Assembly (NCBI RefSeq): GCF_013522725.1
Contig: NZ_JAAMRF010000001.1
Span: 124,001-188,000 of the forward strand
Length of the DNA stretch: 64,000 nt
Direction of reading: 5' to 3'
Origin: Stutzerimonas azotifigens
Lineage (GTDB): Bacteria; Pseudomonadota; Gammaproteobacteria; Pseudomonadales; Pseudomonadaceae
Below are positions 52,926 through 60,275 of this stretch, piece after piece. Below the pieces are notes generated by a model. That model was given only the letters and a program-made list of their open reading frames with translations, was not told the DNA's origin and did not search any database. The first letter of the stretch is position 1, and every line of letters begins with the position of its first letter. A program made the position numbers and the translations under genes.

Positions 52926-52973
52926 GTTTCGCATATTTTCGCCGCTCCCCTTACCCTCGAGGAACTGCTCACC

Positions 52974-55223
52974 ATGCGCGAAGCGCCGGAATTCAAGCTG
53001 CAATACCCGGGCCTGATGGCTTCGGCCATAGGGGTCGCGATGACCGCGTTGTCTTCGCCGGTGCTTGCTCAGGCTGTCGCAAAGCCTCGCCCGGAAAGCG
53101 AGTCCGCAGTCGATCTGGAGTCCGTCACGGTGGTCGGCCAGGCCGAGGCCTACAAGACCGAATCGGCATCGAGGAAATACACCGCGCCGCTGCGCGAGAC
53201 GCCCAAGTCGGTCACGGTGATCTCCCAGCAGGTGATGAAGGACAGCGGTTCGCTGTCGCTGGCCGATGCCTTGCGTACCACCTCGGGCATCACCTTCGGT
53301 GCGGGAGAGGGCGGTAATCCGGCGGGCGACCGGCCGATCATTCGCGGCTTCAACGCCGAGAGCGACACTTTTGTCGACGGCCTGCGCGACGTCGGCTCGC
53401 AGACCCGCGAGGTGTTCAACATCGAGCAGATCGAGGTGAGCAAGGGGCCGGGTTCGGCCTATACCGGCGCCGGTTCCACCGGCGGCAGCCTCAACCTCAT
53501 CAGCAAGACCGCCAAGCGCAACGATTTCGCCGATGCCAGCTTCACCTATGGCTCGGACCAGACCCGCCGCTATACGCTGGACGTCAACCGCGTGATCAGC
53601 GAGAACGTCGCCGGCCGCCTGAACCTGATGAAGCACGACGCCAACGTCGCCGGCCGCGACGGTGCCGACGTCAGCCGCTGGGGCGTGGCGCCGACGGTGA
53701 CCTTCGGCTTCGACACGCCGACCCGGGCGACGCTGTCGTACTACCACTTGGAAACTGACGACATGCCAGACTACGGCCTGCCGCTGACGGTCGCCACCGC
53801 GGCAAACCCCAAGCGCACGCCGGTCAGCGTGGACCGCGACAACTTCTATGGGCTCGCCTCGCGCGATTTCCGCGAGAGCACCACCGATGCCGGGACGTTG
53901 CGGCTCGAGCACGACCTGAGCGACAGCCTGACCCTGTCCAACACCACCCGTATCGCACGCACCACGCTCGACACCATCGTCACCAATCCGGACGACTCGC
54001 GCGGCAACGTCGCCAACGGCCTGGTGTCGCGTTCGTCCAAGAACCGCAATTCCAACAGCCGGAGCTGGGTGAACCAGACTGACCTGGCGGCGCGTTTCGA
54101 GACCGGCAGCATCGAGCACACGCTGGTCACCGGGGTCGAGGCGAGTGCGGTCGACGTGCACAACCGCCCCTACGTCGTGACCCAGGGCGCGGCCGGGACC
54201 ACCTGTTCTGCGGCCACGCTGGCATCGGGTGACTGCACCAGCCTCTACAACCCTAATCCCAAGGACGCCTGGACAGGTACCGTTGCGCGCAGCAATGCCA
54301 GCACCGATACCGACACCCGGACGCTGGCGGCCTATGTCTTCGACACGCTGAGGTTCAACGAGCAATGGTCGCTGAACGCGGGGCTGCGCTACGACGACTA
54401 CGAGACTCGGCAGAAGGCGGTCGCAACCACCGGCGTCACCCGGCCGGAGAACAACAGCCACTTCTGGAACTACCAGCTGGGCCTGGTCTTCAATCCGCTG
54501 CCCAACGGTAGCGTCTATGTCGCCTGGTCGACCTCCAGCAACCCGTCCGGTGAAACCGCCGGGGAGGGCGCCGATGGCCTCAGCACCAGCAACGAGATCC
54601 TCGAGCCGGAGCACAACCGCAACTACGAGGTGGGCACCAAGTGGGATCTGCTCGACGACCGTCTCGGCCTGACTGCCGCGCTGTTCCGTACCGAGAAGAC
54701 CAACGCGCGGGTGACCAATGCCGACGGCTTCCAGGAAAGCATCGGCGAGACTCGGGTTGACGGCCTGGAGTTGAGCGCCACCGGCCAGCTCACCCGCAAC
54801 TGGCAGGTCTTCGCCAGTTACACCTACCTGGACGCCGAGCTGGTCGAGTCGGGCGCCGCCAACGTCGGCACCCGTAACGCGCCGATATGGGTGCAAGGCC
54901 TGTACGACGGCAACGAGGTGCCGAGTACGCCGGAAAACAGTTTCAGCCTGTGGACCACCTACCACCTGACCGAGGATCTGACCATCGGGGGCGGGGCTAA
55001 CTATGTGGATTCGCGCTATGGCGATACGGCCAACCTGATCCAGGTGCCCGACTACTGGCGCTACGATGCGATGGCGGCCTATCGCGTCAGCAAGAACCTG
55101 GACCTGCAGCTGAACGTGCAGAACCTCACGGACAAGCGTTACTTCGACCAGGTCTATGGCGCGCACATGGCCCACGTGGCGGCCGGGCGGACGGTACTGT
55201 TGAGCACCAACGTGCATTTCTAA
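52974..55223 (+). CDS. piuA: TonB-dependent catecholate siderophore receptor PiuA/Fiu-like
   Basis: A 749-residue outer-membrane receptor. A long signal region (cut near SPVLA-Q) precedes the plug domain (about 50-170: ESVTVVGQAEAYKTES, APLRETPKSVTVISQQVMKD, DRPIIRGFNAESDTFVDGLRD) and a 22-strand barrel ending in the consensus F (VLLSTNVHF). The start ATG at 52974 has gagga upstream. The frame also opens at a TTG inside the Fur box, which I reject. The neighbour piuC and the Fur box support ferric-catechol import. Homologues are a route for siderophore-linked antibiotics. Confidence 0.92.
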   Translation: MREAPEFKLQYPGLMASAIGVAMTALSSPVLAQAVAKPRPESESAVDLESVTVVGQAEAYKTESASRKYTAPLRETPKSVTVISQQVMKDSGSLSLADALRTTSGITFGAGEGGNPAGDRPIIRGFNAESDTFVDGLRDVGSQTREVFNIEQIEVSKGPGSAYTGAGSTGGSLNLISKTAKRNDFADASFTYGSDQTRRYTLDVNRVISENVAGRLNLMKHDANVAGRDGADVSRWGVAPTVTFGFDTPTRATLSYYHLETDDMPDYGLPLTVATAANPKRTPVSVDRDNFYGLASRDFRESTTDAGTLRLEHDLSDSLTLSNTTRIARTTLDTIVTNPDDSRGNVANGLVSRSSKNRNSNSRSWVNQTDLAARFETGSIEHTLVTGVEASAVDVHNRPYVVTQGAAGTTCSAATLASGDCTSLYNPNPKDAWTGTVARSNASTDTDTRTLAAYVFDTLRFNEQWSLNAGLRYDDYETRQKAVATTGVTRPENNSHFWNYQLGLVFNPLPNGSVYVAWSTSSNPSGETAGEGADGLSTSNEILEPEHNRNYEVGTKWDLLDDRLGLTAALFRTEKTNARVTNADGFQESIGETRVDGLELSATGQLTRNWQVFASYTYLDAELVESGAANVGTRNAPIWVQGLYDGNEVPSTPENSFSLWTTYHLTEDLTIGGGANYVDSRYGDTANLIQVPDYWRYDAMAAYRVSKNLDLQLNVQNLTDKRYFDQVYGAHMAHVAAGRTVLLSTNVHF

Positions 55224-55240
55224 CGGTTGTTGGTGCAACA

Positions 55241-55268
55241 AAAAGCCCCGCGAATGCGGGGCTTTTTC
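55241..55268. terminator. Terminator between piuA and the 75-residue gene
   Basis: A perfect hairpin (aaaaagccccgc / gcggggcttttt, 4-base loop) with A/T runs on both flanks ends both convergent genes. Confidence 0.93.
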
Positions 55269-55269
55269 G

Positions 55270-55497
55270 TCAGGCTTTGAGTGATCGCTGAGCGCGTTCG
55301 ATAACCGCCTGCAGCTTGTCGTTGTGCAGGTAGTGGTCCGGATACAGTCGCTCCGAGTGACGGGCGACGCCGTGCTCGTTGACCAGGGTAAAGCTGAAGC
55401 TCCCTTTGCGGGTGGTTGCCAGGATATGGCACTGCAGCGGGAAGAAGGCATTACTGAGGGCGCTCATGGCGGCCTGTGCTTGTTGTTGAATCGACAT
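55270..55497 (-). CDS. Small unknown protein, ancestral copy of a duplicated fragment
   Basis: A 75-residue protein starting MSIQQQAQAAMSALSNAFFPL and ending in a Lys-rich helix (NDKLQAVIERAQRSLKA). The centre (CHILATTRKGSFSFTLVNEHGV) looks like a small beta sheet. No signal peptide or known domain is seen. The start ATG is supported because a degenerate copy at 57172-57270 keeps the QQQAQ coding frame but has lost the ATG (AAG). A Fur-like site lies 70-88 bases upstream. It sits back to back with a curlin-repeat gene. Confidence 0.65.
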   Translation of the reverse strand: MSIQQQAQAAMSALSNAFFPLQCHILATTRKGSFSFTLVNEHGVARHSERLYPDHYLHNDKLQAVIERAQRSLKA

Positions 55498-56027
55498 CTT
55501 TATAGGTACTCACATTCGGCCAAGACGGCCGCGAAGAAGAACTCCGAATTCGCTGCCATACGCGGCAGTCAGAATGATCCTTATCGGAGCAGAGACAGCT
55601 GAAGAAGTTCATCGCTTGAGGATGCTTGCAGCTGGCGAAAGTACTTGGAAGGCAAGGAGTCCCGGCAAGGTTCAGGCCGGTGACCATCAAGGAGGGGCCG
55701 CGTGGGCGGTCTTGTTGATATGCAGCGGGTACTAACGGGCAGCAGCATAACGTGTACGGCTCGGAAATAGTCTGACTTCGCGCACATTCCGACGACAGGT
55801 AGTACGTTTCGAACGAGGCGGCCGCTCAACGGCGCGGGATTAATCCTTTTGCCCGTCATGAACTGTCATTTTACATCGTTCGGCCGATGTTCCCGGCCAG
55901 GCCTCAAGCGAACAATCCGGCCAGCCGCGTCGCCCGTAAGGATCAAGCAAGGAAGGCTGCCATCACCCCCGAAGCGCTTGAACAATAAGGCGGCACGCGG
56001 AATGGAAACCACAAGGAGAAAATCGAA
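55498..56027. other. 530-base intergenic region upstream of curlin-repeat gene 1
   Basis: No gene is seen on either strand. The last 230 bases resemble the region upstream of the second curlin-repeat gene. Shared blocks are ccgacgacaggta, cggcgcggga, atcgttcggccgat (55875-55888) and gcgaacaatccgg. The first 260 bases are unique to this copy and contain the Fur-like site. The shared blocks are the best place to look for promoter and operator elements. Confidence 0.6.
55567..55585 (-). promoter_or_regulatory. Fur-like site upstream of the 75-residue gene
   Basis: Read on the minus strand, GATAAGGATCATTCTGACT matches the Fur consensus at 12 of 19 positions, mostly in the first 12. It is not palindromic in its second half, so the call is tentative. 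Confidence 0.35.
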
Positions 56028-57092
56028 ATGAGCACACTCAAGCCACTGGCTGCCTGCATGTTTCTCATCTTCAGCGGCCAGGCCCTGGCCGCCAATACGG
56101 CGCTGCAAATTCAGGACGGCGCCGACAACGAGGCGGTGATCGAACAACTCAATGGCGATGGCAACTTCGCCGATCAAACCCAGCTTGGTGATCTCAATCA
56201 CTCGGCCATCACCCAGGATGGCAACTCCAATACGGCGATCACCCAGCAGAACGGTCCGTTGAATCAGACCGAACTGGCCCAGGTTGGCAATCTCAACAGC
56301 GCCAGTGTTTATCAGGTCGGCTACAACAACGTCGGCGAGATTACCCAACTGGGTGACGGCAACCAGATCGCGCTCAGCCAGGATCAGGGGTATGGCGAGC
56401 CCTATCTGCTCAACGGTTCGACCGCAGCGCTGTATCAGCAGGGCAACAACAACAGCCTGATGGTCGACCAGACCTGGTACGGCAACAATCTGACCGTGGT
56501 CACTCTAGGCGACGATAACAGCATGCAAGTCGTGCAAGGCGGTTTCGGCAGAGCCCAGCTGCAGCAGGTGGGCAGTGGCAACGCTGTCATCTTCGAGCAG
56601 CAGAACGCGGGCTTTGGTGGTTCGATGGACGTCAGCCAGAGTGGCAACAACAACTCGGCCAGCATGGGACAGAGCGGGGGCGGCCGTTACCACGCCGGCA
56701 CCGCCACGCTGCAGCAGAACGGCGACAACAACCAGGCGAGCGTTGGTCAGTATGGCGGCTTCAACGAACTGAGCTTCAGCCAGGAGGGTAACGGCAACGA
56801 ACTGGATGCCTATCAGGGCGGGCGTAGCACCGTGCTGGTGGGCAGCTCGACCGGCGACTTCAACCGCGCCGAGGTCAGTCAAAGCATGGACGGCAACAAC
56901 GCGGAGCTGACCCAGGTCGGCTCCGAGAACGTCGTTCAGATCGAGCAGGGTGCCTATAACAGCAATGCGCAGGTCAGCCAGATCGGCATGGCCAACCAGG
57001 CCACCCTCGTCCAGTCGTCCTGGGATGTCAGCGCCAGTGCCAGCGTGATGCAGAACGGCAGCGGCAACCTGGCAACCATCCACCAGCGTTGA
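56028..57092 (+). CDS. Large curlin-repeat (CsgA-like) secreted protein 1
   Basis: A 354-residue protein with a type I signal peptide (cut near QALA-AN), then nothing but Asn/Gln/Gly repeats. Asn recurs at 23, 34, 46, 57, 68, 79, 90, 101 and 112; Gln follows six residues later (29, 40, 52, 63, 85, 96, 107, 118), often with Gly two further on. This is the curlin pattern (PF07012), about 20 strand-size repeats, against roughly ten strands in E. coli CsgA. Longer inserts occur at about 118-138, 195-210, 262-275 and 325-338. The ribosome site aaggag is strong. It should be exported and may form amyloid fibres. No csg secretion gene is nearby. The repeat architecture is seen; fibre formation is inference. 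Confidence 0.8.
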   Translation: MSTLKPLAACMFLIFSGQALAANTALQIQDGADNEAVIEQLNGDGNFADQTQLGDLNHSAITQDGNSNTAITQQNGPLNQTELAQVGNLNSASVYQVGYNNVGEITQLGDGNQIALSQDQGYGEPYLLNGSTAALYQQGNNNSLMVDQTWYGNNLTVVTLGDDNSMQVVQGGFGRAQLQQVGSGNAVIFEQQNAGFGGSMDVSQSGNNNSASMGQSGGGRYHAGTATLQQNGDNNQASVGQYGGFNELSFSQEGNGNELDAYQGGRSTVLVGSSTGDFNRAEVSQSMDGNNAELTQVGSENVVQIEQGAYNSNAQVSQIGMANQATLVQSSWDVSASASVMQNGSGNLATIHQR

Positions 57093-57097
57093 GTCAG

Positions 57098-57170
57098 CCC
57101 AGGCCGGCGCCCGCCGGCCGCGGGTCGGTAAAGGTCGCGGCGGTAGTGTCCCGCTCCGCCAGCGATTCTG
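57098..57170 (-). pseudogene. Duplicated 3'-end fragment of the flavoreductase gene
   Basis: About 70 bases resemble 58606-58678, which hold the hairpin and the last ten or so codons of the flavoreductase gene plus its stop. On the minus strand the copy still reads E-S-L-A-E, then a one-base deletion shifts the frame, and the stop codon TGA has become CGA. It is a non-functional scar of the tandem duplication. The GGCCGGC hairpin at 57102-57119 is retained and may end transcription of curlin gene 1. Confidence 0.75.
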
Positions 57171-57171
57171 C

Positions 57172-57270
57172 CGCTCCGAGTGACGACGCTGTGCTCGTGA
57201 CCCAGCGCGAAGCCGAAGCTCCCCTGCTGAGGTCGCTCATGTCGGACTGTGCTTGTTGTTGAATCGACTT
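57172..57270 (-). pseudogene. Degenerate 5' fragment of the 75-residue gene
   Basis: The minus strand reads K-SIQQQAQSDMSDLS, matching MSIQQQAQAAMSALS of the intact gene at 55270-55497. The start ATG is now AAG, an internal stretch of about 45 bases is gone, and the match ends at cgctccgagtga (57172-57183, equal to 55349-55360). Directly at that point it is fused to the flavoreductase fragment. It is not expected to be translated. Confidence 0.75.
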
Positions 57271-57539
57271 GCTCACGTTCGGCCATGAACTTAGTCCTTC
57301 TTCGCGCAGACTCCCGACGACAGGTAGCACGATTCAGCGAGGCAGCCGATGAGCGGCGCGGGACTAATTCTCCGTTTGTCTCATGCGCGTCCAATTTGGA
57401 TCGTTCGGCCGATTTTCGCGGTCGGGCCTCGGGCGAACAATCCGGCAGGCCCGTCGCCCGCAAGAAACCAGGGAAGGCACCACCCCGAGCGCTCGAGGAC
57501 AAGGCGGCACGCGAACGACATCATGAGGAGGACGTACAC
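57271..57539 (+). repeat. Duplicated upstream region of curlin-repeat gene 2
   Basis: About 230 bases align with 55780-56027 upstream of gene 1. Both contain ccgacgacaggta, cggcgcggga-taat, atcgttcggccgat (57400-57413 here), gcgaacaatccgg and aaggcggcacgcg. Compared with copy 1, some 260 bases including the Fur-like site are missing between the small-gene remnant and this block. No gene lies here. Confidence 0.7.
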
Positions 57540-58601
57540 ATGAGTACACTGAAGCCACTGGCTGTCTGCATGTTTCTCATCTTCAGCGGCCATGCCCTAG
57601 CCGCCAACACCGCGCTGCAGAATCAGGACGGTACCGATAACGAGGTGGTGATCGAGCAATTCAACGGCGACGGCAACCTGGCCGAGCAAACCCAGTCCGG
57701 CACACGCAACCACTCGGTCATTAGCCAGGATGGCAGCGACAATACGGCGTACATCGAGCAGGCCGGCGAGCAGAACCAGGCGAAAGTGGACCAGGTCGGC
57801 AACCTCAACAGCGCCAGCATCCAGCAGGTCGACTACGACAACCTCGGCGAGATCACCCAGCTGGGCGACGGCAACCAGGCCGTCCTTTGGCAGGGCCAGC
57901 AAGGTGAACCCTATCTCACCGACGGCTCGAGCGCCGTGCTGTACCAGGAAGGCAACAACAACAGCGTGAAGGTCGACCAGATCTGGTACCGCAACAACCT
58001 GACCGTGAGCTCCATCGGCGACAACAACGACGTTCAGGTGACGCAGGGCGGTTTCAGCGACATCGACGTGGCCCAGGTGGGCAACGACAACATCGCCAAC
58101 ATCGTGCACCAGGCGGCCGGTGCGGGCAGTGTGATGTCCCTTGAGCAGACCGGAAACGGCAACGTCGCCAACATGAGCCAGTCGGGCGGCGCCCGTGCAA
58201 ACCCCGGCAGCGCCACGTTGCAGCAGAAAGGCGACAACAACCGGGCGGATATTTCGCAAACCGGTCATTTCAATGAGGTGGACTTTAGCCAGGTGGGCAC
58301 TGGTAACGAGCTGGATGTCGTTCAAGGTGGGGAGCGCATCGTGTTCACGGGCAGCTCGACGGGCGACTTCAACCGTGCGGAAATCGACCAGGGCGCTAGC
58401 GACGCCTATCTGGAGCTGACGCAGGTGGGCTCGGAGAACGTCGCGAAGGTAGACCAGGCGTCCTATCAGGGCGATGCGCAGATCAGCCAGATCGGCATGG
58501 CCAACCAGGTCACCCTGGTCCAGGCCTCCTCGGCGATCTCCCCCAGCGCCAGCGTGATGCAGAACGGCAGCGGCAACCAGGCGACCATCCACCAGCGTTG
58601 A
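57540..58601 (+). CDS. Large curlin-repeat (CsgA-like) secreted protein 2
   Basis: A 353-residue paralogue of the preceding curlin-repeat protein, alike along its whole length (roughly two thirds identical by eye). Signal peptide, 11-residue Asn/Gln/Gly ladder, all four inserts and the C-terminal SASVMQNGSGNQATIHQR are conserved. Differences cluster in the exposed positions between the Asn and Gln ladders, while the ladder residues are kept, which suggests selection on the repeat fold. The start has a strong site (gaggagg). It overlaps nothing and is convergent with the flavoreductase gene; a GGCCGGC hairpin (58611-58628) follows. As with copy 1, export and amyloid formation are inferred. Confidence 0.8.
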   Translation: MSTLKPLAVCMFLIFSGHALAANTALQNQDGTDNEVVIEQFNGDGNLAEQTQSGTRNHSVISQDGSDNTAYIEQAGEQNQAKVDQVGNLNSASIQQVDYDNLGEITQLGDGNQAVLWQGQQGEPYLTDGSSAVLYQEGNNNSVKVDQIWYRNNLTVSSIGDNNDVQVTQGGFSDIDVAQVGNDNIANIVHQAAGAGSVMSLEQTGNGNVANMSQSGGARANPGSATLQQKGDNNRADISQTGHFNEVDFSQVGTGNELDVVQGGERIVFTGSSTGDFNRAEIDQGASDAYLELTQVGSENVAKVDQASYQGDAQISQIGMANQVTLVQASSAISPSASVMQNGSGNQATIHQR

Positions 58602-58610
58602 GCCAACCGC

Positions 58611-58628
58611 GGCCGGCGCGTGCCGGCC
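58611..58628. terminator. Hairpin between curlin-repeat gene 2 and the flavoreductase gene
   Basis: A 7-bp perfect stem (ggccggc / gccggcc) with a 4-base loop. The same stem with a different loop occurs after curlin gene 1 (57102-57119). No T-run follows, so it is a weak terminator at best. Confidence 0.4.
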
Positions 58629-58633
58629 GGCAG

Positions 58634-60238
58634 TCAGTAAAGGTCGCGGCGGTAGCGTCCCTGCTCTGCCAGCGACTCCAGGCGATCCTCGCCCAGCAGG
58701 CTGGCCAGCAGCTGATGCACGTCCCGGCCCATGCCTTCGAGACTGCCGCACAGGTAGAGCGCGGCGCCGTCCTCCAGCCAATCGCGCAACGGCTGCGTCG
58801 CGTCGCGCAGCAGATGCTGCACGTAGACCTTCTGCGCCCCTTCGCGCGAATAGGCCCGGTCGAGCCGTGCCAGATGGCCCGAGCGCAGCCAGCCTTGCAG
58901 CTCATCGTCCAGCAGGGCGTCATGGTTAGCGCTGCGTTCACCGAACAGCAGCCAGTTGCGCGACCCCGCGGTGCGCTCGCGCAGATGCGCGCGCAGGCCG
59001 GCAAGTCCCGTACCGCTGCCGATCAGGATCATCGGTGTGGGGTCACCGGGCCCGTGGAATGCCGGGTTGGAGCGAATCCGCAGGTCGATCGACTCGCCGA
59101 GCTCGGCGTACCTGCATAGCCAGCCGGAGCCCAGGCCGAGGCCGAGGCCGCCATCCTGGCCGGACTGCTGGCGGACCAGCAATTCCACGCAGCCGTCGGC
59201 GGGCACCGAGGCGATGGAGTACTCGCGATGCGGCAGCTTCGCCAGCTGTTCGACCAGCCGCTGCGCCGACAAGCCACGCAGGCCATCCACCGCATCGGGC
59301 AACTGACGCTCGGCCAAGCGCTGAGCGAGGGGCTGGCCGTCGTCGAGACGCTGCTGCCCATCCAGCCCGAGGCGTTCCAGCCAGGCCTCGACCGTAGCGC
59401 CCGGCTGGCGCGGGCCGATTTCGGCGATGTCGCCGGCGCGCCACGTCGGCAGCGCATTGGTCGGGACGAGCGTCAAATGATGGATTGGCGCACCGAGGCT
59501 GCCGGGGTTCAGGCACTGGCGCTGTTCCAGTCTCCAGCGTCCATAGGGGGCTGGGTGCCAGTCGACGAAATCGCTGTGTCCGCTGAGATGGCCCAGCAGA
59601 TGTTGCCAGTGACGCACTGCGCTGGGGTCGCCGCGGTCGACGTCCACTCGATCGAACAGGGGCGAGGCATGGCGTTGGCGCAACCAGCGGTCGAGTGCCA
59701 CGGCAAAACCGCAGAACTGCGCGTACTGGCGATCGCCGAGCGCCAGTACGGCGTACTCCAGGCCCGACAGGTCGACGTCGCTGCCAAGTATCTGACGGGC
59801 GAAGCGGGCACCGTTGTCGGGCGCCTCGCCTTCGCCGTAGGTGGCGCAGACGAACAGCACGCGGCGCTGCCGTTGCAGGTGTTCGGCATCGCAGGCGTTG
59901 AGCGGCAGCAGCTGCGCTCGCAGCCCGGCTGCCGCCAGCTGCCCGGCGCTGAGCTCAGCCAGGGAACGAGCCTGACCGCCCTGGCTGGCGTAGAGGATCA
60001 GGAGATCGTGCGCCGCTGGGTCCGACGTAGGTGCGCCGCCATGCCGGCGGGGCCAGTACCAGAGGCAGAGCGCGAGGTAGGCGAGGCCGACGAGCATGGC
60101 CGACAGCCCGCGCGGCGGCCGCAGCCAGAGCAGCAGAACGGCAAGCAGCAGCGCGCCGATCCATGGCCAGTGGCGGAGGGCGAGCGGAGCGCGGGAGCGG
60201 ACGTCGGGCAAGGGTGGAAACCTGCGGAGCGCAGACAT
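58634..60238 (-). CDS. Membrane-anchored flavodoxin/FAD reductase (ferric or siderophore reductase)
   Basis: A 534-residue protein with two N-terminal membrane segments (about 20-65), then a flavodoxin domain (ILYASQGGQARSLAE, ATYGEGEAPDNGARF, LALGDRQYAQFCGFA), then a CysJ-like FAD/NADPH domain (REYSIASVP, ILIGSGTGLAGLRAHLRER, ALYLCGSLEGMGRDVH). Electrons would pass from NADPH via FAD and FMN to the membrane or periplasm. PA4513 (piuB), as I recall, fuses this module to a PepSY part; here PepSY is a separate gene of the same cluster. I start at MSALRRFPPL (60238); the longer frame lacks a ribosome site. Confidence 0.85.
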   Translation of the reverse strand: MSALRRFPPLPDVRSRAPLALRHWPWIGALLLAVLLLWLRPPRGLSAMLVGLAYLALCLWYWPRRHGGAPTSDPAAHDLLILYASQGGQARSLAELSAGQLAAAGLRAQLLPLNACDAEHLQRQRRVLFVCATYGEGEAPDNGARFARQILGSDVDLSGLEYAVLALGDRQYAQFCGFAVALDRWLRQRHASPLFDRVDVDRGDPSAVRHWQHLLGHLSGHSDFVDWHPAPYGRWRLEQRQCLNPGSLGAPIHHLTLVPTNALPTWRAGDIAEIGPRQPGATVEAWLERLGLDGQQRLDDGQPLAQRLAERQLPDAVDGLRGLSAQRLVEQLAKLPHREYSIASVPADGCVELLVRQQSGQDGGLGLGLGSGWLCRYAELGESIDLRIRSNPAFHGPGDPTPMILIGSGTGLAGLRAHLRERTAGSRNWLLFGERSANHDALLDDELQGWLRSGHLARLDRAYSREGAQKVYVQHLLRDATQPLRDWLEDGAALYLCGSLEGMGRDVHQLLASLLGEDRLESLAEQGRYRRDLY

Positions 60239-60275
60239 CGAGCCGCTGCTGGGGGCAGGGCTCGATGCCGGCCGG

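Follow-up and report, generated by a model that had tools for sequence, protein, structure and literature searches.

Curli systems are as a rule recognized by their compact operon. The E. coli subunit CsgA has five repeats, and the accessible text of the same source describes curlins of 4–62 repeats, multi-copy genomes, rare N22-like starts and a lack of CsgG in 2% of the genomes with CsgA (PMC10192328). Homologues of csgA/B number up to six in some genera and up to 30 in one genome in the parts available of two surveys (PMC3521004, PMC10192328), and the extra copies are often found in additional curli operons (PMC3521004). The available passages also place csgD near the csg operon of P. stutzeri (PMC3521004) and mention curli genes in S. 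stutzeri MJL19 (PMC12125118). Given that large curlins and multi-copy genomes have already been published, the two proteins described here are new members of a known family. What we did not meet in the literature searched is an arrangement of dispersed genes that have a promoter-like element in common; that literature was thin on subscription journals, and in its accessible parts a promoter common to dispersed curlins is not described.

Results

We analyzed a stretch of 64,000 nucleotides from Stutzerimonas azotifigens, hereafter the window, which contains two neighboring genes for large repeat proteins:

56028..57092, plus strand: curlin 1, 354 aa, curlin repeats, signal-peptide-like start
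57540..58601, plus strand: curlin 2, 353 aa, curlin repeats, 64% identity to curlin 1

The start of curlin 2 was set at the ATG at 57540, chosen for a signal-peptide-like N-terminus resembling that of curlin 1, in place of the GTG at 57249 given in the open reading frame listing. A preliminary description had read both proteins as curlins from an 11-residue pattern with Asn at position 1, Gln at position 7 and mostly Gly at position 9. The PF07012 profile bears this out, with 94.5 bits in 9 stretches for curlin 1 and 115 bits in 10 stretches for curlin 2, both far above chance at a curated cut-off of 20.7, as do the counts of N-x5-Q (21 and 19, respectively) and of Q-x-G-x-x-N (16 and 15). Estimated by length, each protein has approximately 14.5 repeats, so the proposed doubling relative to E. 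coli CsgA becomes roughly a threefold difference. The stacked solenoid expected of such a protein is what AlphaFold2 predicts for curlin 1: the model has approximately 29 predicted strands in a strand-arc-strand arrangement, the curlin fold. Foldseek alone found nothing at an E-value of 0.001 or better for this model and placed the curlin structure 8c50 fourth, and VIA-align, applied to re-examine the hits that Foldseek had listed, ranked 8c50 first. At the sequence level a window curlin matches 8c50 with an E-value of 2.6e-23. To the eye, residues 1–21 of curlin 1 resemble a signal peptide, and the model leaves them disordered; a reading of both proteins by eye recognized no N22-like CsgG targeting repeat. 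The proteins are acidic (pI 4.05; D+E 9 and 12%), and their mature forms have no cysteine and 3–4 histidines.

The pair had also been called orphan, which holds within the window, where csgE, csgF and csgG are indeed absent, but not for the genome. PF07012 detects five further large curlins, two on contig C22 (C22a and C22b) and one each on C31, C30 and C7, giving at least seven large curlin genes at six genomic places with the window pair included. The other six align along most or the whole of curlin 1 at 28–64% identity. A genome search for csgE, csgF and csgG returned one match each, all on contig C28 and thus on another contig than the window pair, which lies outside the csg operon. The order on C28 is csgD-E-F-G-curlin, with a LuxR-type csgD homologue and a curlin of 163 aa that is the sole curlin beside csgG; the 16-kb csg stretch holds no second one. 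After this curlin comes a 116-aa open reading frame (L012:7636-7986, minus strand) that has no Pfam match and is conserved beside related clusters; at a guess from its position, it might have a CsgC/CsgH-like role.

The upstream regions of several dispersed curlins and of a csgB-like gene contain a bipartite element, GGNYTAAKCC, 24–29 nt and YTAYACCG, which takes the following forms in the window:

55836..55878, plus strand: curlin 1 element, box GGGATTAATCC (55836-55846), 24 nt, then TTACATCG (55871-55878)
57360..57403, plus strand: weaker curlin 2 element, box GGGACTAATTC (57360-57370), with a poor second part, TTGGATCG, that has three mismatches

Boxes like GGGATTAATCC recur in the upstream regions of large curlins. 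The pattern GGGAYTAATNC occurs six times in the S. azotifigens genome, five times at curlins, compared with two matches for the reversed control; the count is partly circular, given that four of these five sites served to derive the pattern and the fifth (csgB-like) was already known from inspection by eye. The sixth match, on C29, is located at the 3' end of a transporter gene, and we attribute it to chance. Among 55 curlin open reading frames from 47 sources, the best box match within 260 nt upstream has 0–2 mismatches in 25, compared with none of 55 for the reversed box and 1.2 predicted by shuffles. Both parts are found in 29 of the 55, and the spacing is 24–29 nt in 28 of these 29, with spacings of 18–33 permitted in the search. 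In its strict combined form the pattern matches 11 times across 56 genomes, and not once when reversed. Ten of the matches immediately precede a curlin in the correct orientation, three of them in genomes outside the pattern design (G003, G009 and G054), and the eleventh is at G033:C1:3885381.

A held-out model built from 18 sites, none from S. azotifigens or S. nosocomialis, was scanned over 4.83 Mb and ranked three curlin upstream regions first: that of C31 (E 2e-4), a rank that is less independent because close relatives sit in the training set, followed by those of curlin 1 (0.20) and C22a (0.34). Ranks 4–6 fall outside known curlins at E-values of 0.47–1.25, close to the values of curlin 1 and C22a. 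Within the window the model gives a single match, the curlin 1 element (E 0.0027), and does not detect the curlin 2 element.

The element is unevenly distributed among curlin groups. We counted a match when at most 2 of the 15 specified positions were mismatched, for which no more than 0.05 matches per group are expected from shuffles, and left out the curlin that comes second in the csgDE clusters L089, L096, L099 and L122. On this basis the element precedes 20 of 38 dispersed curlins and is absent from the other 18 at this threshold, curlin 2 included. For csgB of the csgDE clusters the score is 4 of 7, with L089 among the misses through a frame error; its true upstream region has 0 mismatches. 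In the other csg operon type none of 17 csgA and none of 14 csgB upstream regions has the element (0/31), nor do the six upstream regions of other CsgA-like genes. Because some of these regions served to define the pattern, the positive counts are partly circular, which does not affect the zeros or the genome-wide specificity.

Self-comparison shows that the two curlin genes lie in a tandem duplication, which the following features delimit:

55270..55497, minus strand: small open reading frame, 75 aa, 93% conserved in S. nosocomialis
55341..57168, no strand assigned: duplication arm 1, from inside the small open reading frame up to a copied flavoreductase 3' end
57164..58678, no strand assigned: duplication arm 2
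58634..60241, minus strand: flavodoxin / NAD-binding reductase-like protein (the flavoreductase; profile match, start approximate)

The arms align at 55768-57168 and 57292-58678 (74.3%), at 55341-55404 and 57164-57223 (76.6%) and at 55454-55495 and 57227-57268 (92.9%). Since arm 1 ends with a copy of the flavoreductase 3' end, the unit from the small open reading frame to the flavoreductase end was duplicated head to tail. The gene order in S. nosocomialis is identical: receptor, small open reading frame, two curlins and flavoreductase. In S. nosocomialis A31/70 the gene that corresponds to curlin 2 (L063:7399-8406) is, as deposited, frame-broken where the signal peptide ends, possibly through a sequencing error. 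Relative to S. nosocomialis, dN/dS is 0.23 for curlin 1 and 0.31 for the open part of curlin 2, 0.25 for C22a, 0.28 for C22b, 0.06 for C30, 0.26 for the operon curlin and 0.09 for csgG; between curlin 1 and curlin 2 it is 0.44. The tandem arrangement itself, the broken frame in A31/70, the weaker element before the second copy and the between-copy ratio are what would be expected of a recent local duplication that is decaying and contributes little function itself. However, both copies are intact in S. azotifigens and their ratios resemble those of the operon curlin, C22a and C22b, and we consider decay unlikely.

The preliminary description had further set the pair between a Fur-controlled receptor and an iron operon, and had suggested that the fibers bind metal or siderophore. 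The iron-type neighbors are confirmed (a TonB-dependent receptor, the flavodoxin/NAD-binding protein, DUF4198, DUF2271 and PepSY_TM), and two features lie on the upstream side of the curlins:

52971..55223, plus strand: TonB-dependent receptor (profile match, start approximate)
55240..55267, no strand assigned: strong hairpin, terminator-like on both strands (z -4.3 and -5.3), separating receptor gene from curlins

Fur boxes were scored by simple mismatch count against a consensus of 19 positions. A Fur-like stretch before the receptor scores 12/19, and because 11 other places in the window score equal or higher, the label Fur-controlled is unsupported. Before the curlins the best scores are 9/19 and 10/19, which is background level. 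The hairpin, missed by a simple terminator scan, stands between the curlins and the receptor gene, and the flavoreductase cluster lies on the opposite strand, convergent with the curlins. By eye, no iron-uptake genes were seen beside the other five large curlins, whose neighbors are copper-chaperone-like and xanthine-dehydrogenase-like, glycosidase-like and acetyltransferase-like, hydrolase and phosphoesterase-like, glyoxalase-like and HIT, and, for C31, AraC and PurC. The C31-like curlins do not occupy one fixed place, an idea we rejected given that 11 relatives lack the AraC and PurC neighbors of C31. In four of these 11 (G025, G050, G048 and G023; loci L067, L069, L070 and L071) the stretch contains a distant TonB receptor close to the curlin, with PepSY_TM as the next profiled gene in three of the four, an echo of the window neighborhood; the other seven, L075 included, are without it.

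An iron- or siderophore-binding surface amyloid that partners the flanking receptor and the PepSY/flavoreductase genes would fit the neighborhood, its order shared with S. nosocomialis, the acidity of both proteins and the TonB and PepSY_TM genes near some C31-like curlins. It would fit less well with the absence of a Fur-like site above background, the hairpin, the convergent cluster, a curlin-type element upstream instead, and mature proteins lacking cysteine and poor in histidine. TonB receptors are common in such genomes, so some adjacency to curlins is expected by chance. We therefore regard this reading as quite improbable. Iron control of the curlins was likewise set aside, for want of a Fur-like site above background and given the hairpin and the non-iron neighbors of the paralogues, and keeps a low weight because of the receptors in four of 11 relatives. 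The iron-uptake genes beside the window curlins are probably incidental, given that at least seven curlins lie at six places, several share the motif and all likely use one pore.

A survey of 56 genomes of the genus, counting csgG as strong at an E-value of 1.4e-76 or better, links curlins to this pore. PF07012 is present in 49 genomes and absent in 7; strong csgG accompanies it in 47 of these 49 genomes and occurs in none of the 7 (Fisher p 1.6e-7, with genomes treated as independent and relatedness uncorrected). The two remaining genomes, G004 and G050, hold curlins without any CsgG match. Twenty-five csgG-bearing operons on 24 loci were compared, and three have no curlin in the fetched stretch (L108 in G014, L102 in G055 and L116 in G011); all three genomes have curlins elsewhere. 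Thirteen of the 56 genomes, among them three of the seven without curlins, encode a CsgG-like paralogue that matches more weakly (E 6e-24 to 1e-26) and is not found in S. azotifigens. Export of the large curlins by a route other than CsgG, such as this paralogue, would accommodate G004 and G050, but it is very improbable given that all seven curlin-free genomes lack strong csgG while three keep the paralogue, and that csgG operons without an adjacent curlin are retained where curlins lie elsewhere.

Other operon layouts were also seen. Clusters of csgD-csgE-curlin-curlin with a homologue of the 116-aa open reading frame, and without csgF and csgG, occur at L096 (G050), L099 (G055) and L122 (G004), the csgE of G004 being a 46-residue match only. 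At L091 (G052) there are two tandem csgD-E-F-G-curlin operons with equally scoring csgG copies. The csgD homologue is kept in five of the seven curlin-free genomes (G012, G034, G037, G044 and G051; 60–69% identity), which are also csgG-free. This suggests another role for it, and on these grounds we claim no CsgD box.

A tree of 66 curlins, in which the repeat alignments are unsure and some branches are long (that of C7 very long), separates operon CsgA, C30 and C7 from the other dispersed and the csgDE-cluster curlins (99/95). The window curlins are thus not grouped with operon CsgA, and with their S. nosocomialis partners they form a group of their own (100/100).

Discussion

Our starting observations are the repeats, the set of paralogues, a single set of csgE/F/G, the duplication in tandem and the upstream element that curlins share. 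Judged from these and from the predicted fold of curlin 1, the window curlins are on balance likely to be CsgA-like paralogues that would be secreted through the single CsgG encoded elsewhere and stack their β-solenoids into curli-type amyloid fibers. The earlier suggestion of a biofilm fiber using a csgG pore outside the window gains support from the csgE/F/G set, the predicted solenoid of curlin 1 and the co-occurrence across the genus.

The element would then act as a promoter that co-activates the dispersed curlins and, with them, the operon curlin of 163 aa, which would be the likely nucleator, and CsgE, CsgF and CsgG would serve the dispersed curlins in trans. As a guess, the regulator could be the csg-linked LuxR/CsgD homologue. 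More tentatively, Stutzerimonas may have a dispersed curli regulon, with one CsgG, large curlins at scattered and changing sites, and a dedicated bipartite promoter that activates them jointly and is not used by the classical csg operon of the genus, yielding combinatorial fibers whose subunits can be swapped gene by gene. A genus with solitary large curlins that differ in number and share such an element with a csgB-like gene would allow a direct test of two ideas: that a single amyloid pore exports many subunits, and that the turnover of genes alters fiber composition. Given that large curlins stand alone on the chromosome, a search restricted to csg operons undercounts the amyloid subunits of a genome.

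The closest described system is CsgA R15.5 of Pontibacter korlensis (8c50; PMC10192328), with which curlin 1 shares the predicted curlin fold. The window curlins differ from it in longer loops between some strands and in irregular repeats; fibers are shown for 8c50 in the accessible text of that study, which also notes that R15.5 binds thioflavin T poorly, whereas the window curlins are known from sequence and, for curlin 1, from a model. Compared with E. coli CsgA/CsgB (csgBAC-csgDEFG; 8enq), the curlin repeats are alike (E 1.8e-4) and both genomes have csgD, E, F and G, but the window curlins have about three times as many repeats, lack a recognized N22-like start, lie outside the csg operon and have a different upstream element. 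The operon CsgA of most other Stutzerimonas belongs to the same repeat family, with frames of 411–477 aa and one of 745 beside csgG; the window curlins fall in a separate tree group, and their element is absent from the operon genes. Relative to the multi-copy genomes in the available part of PMC3521004, S. azotifigens has scattered single genes with a common upstream element.
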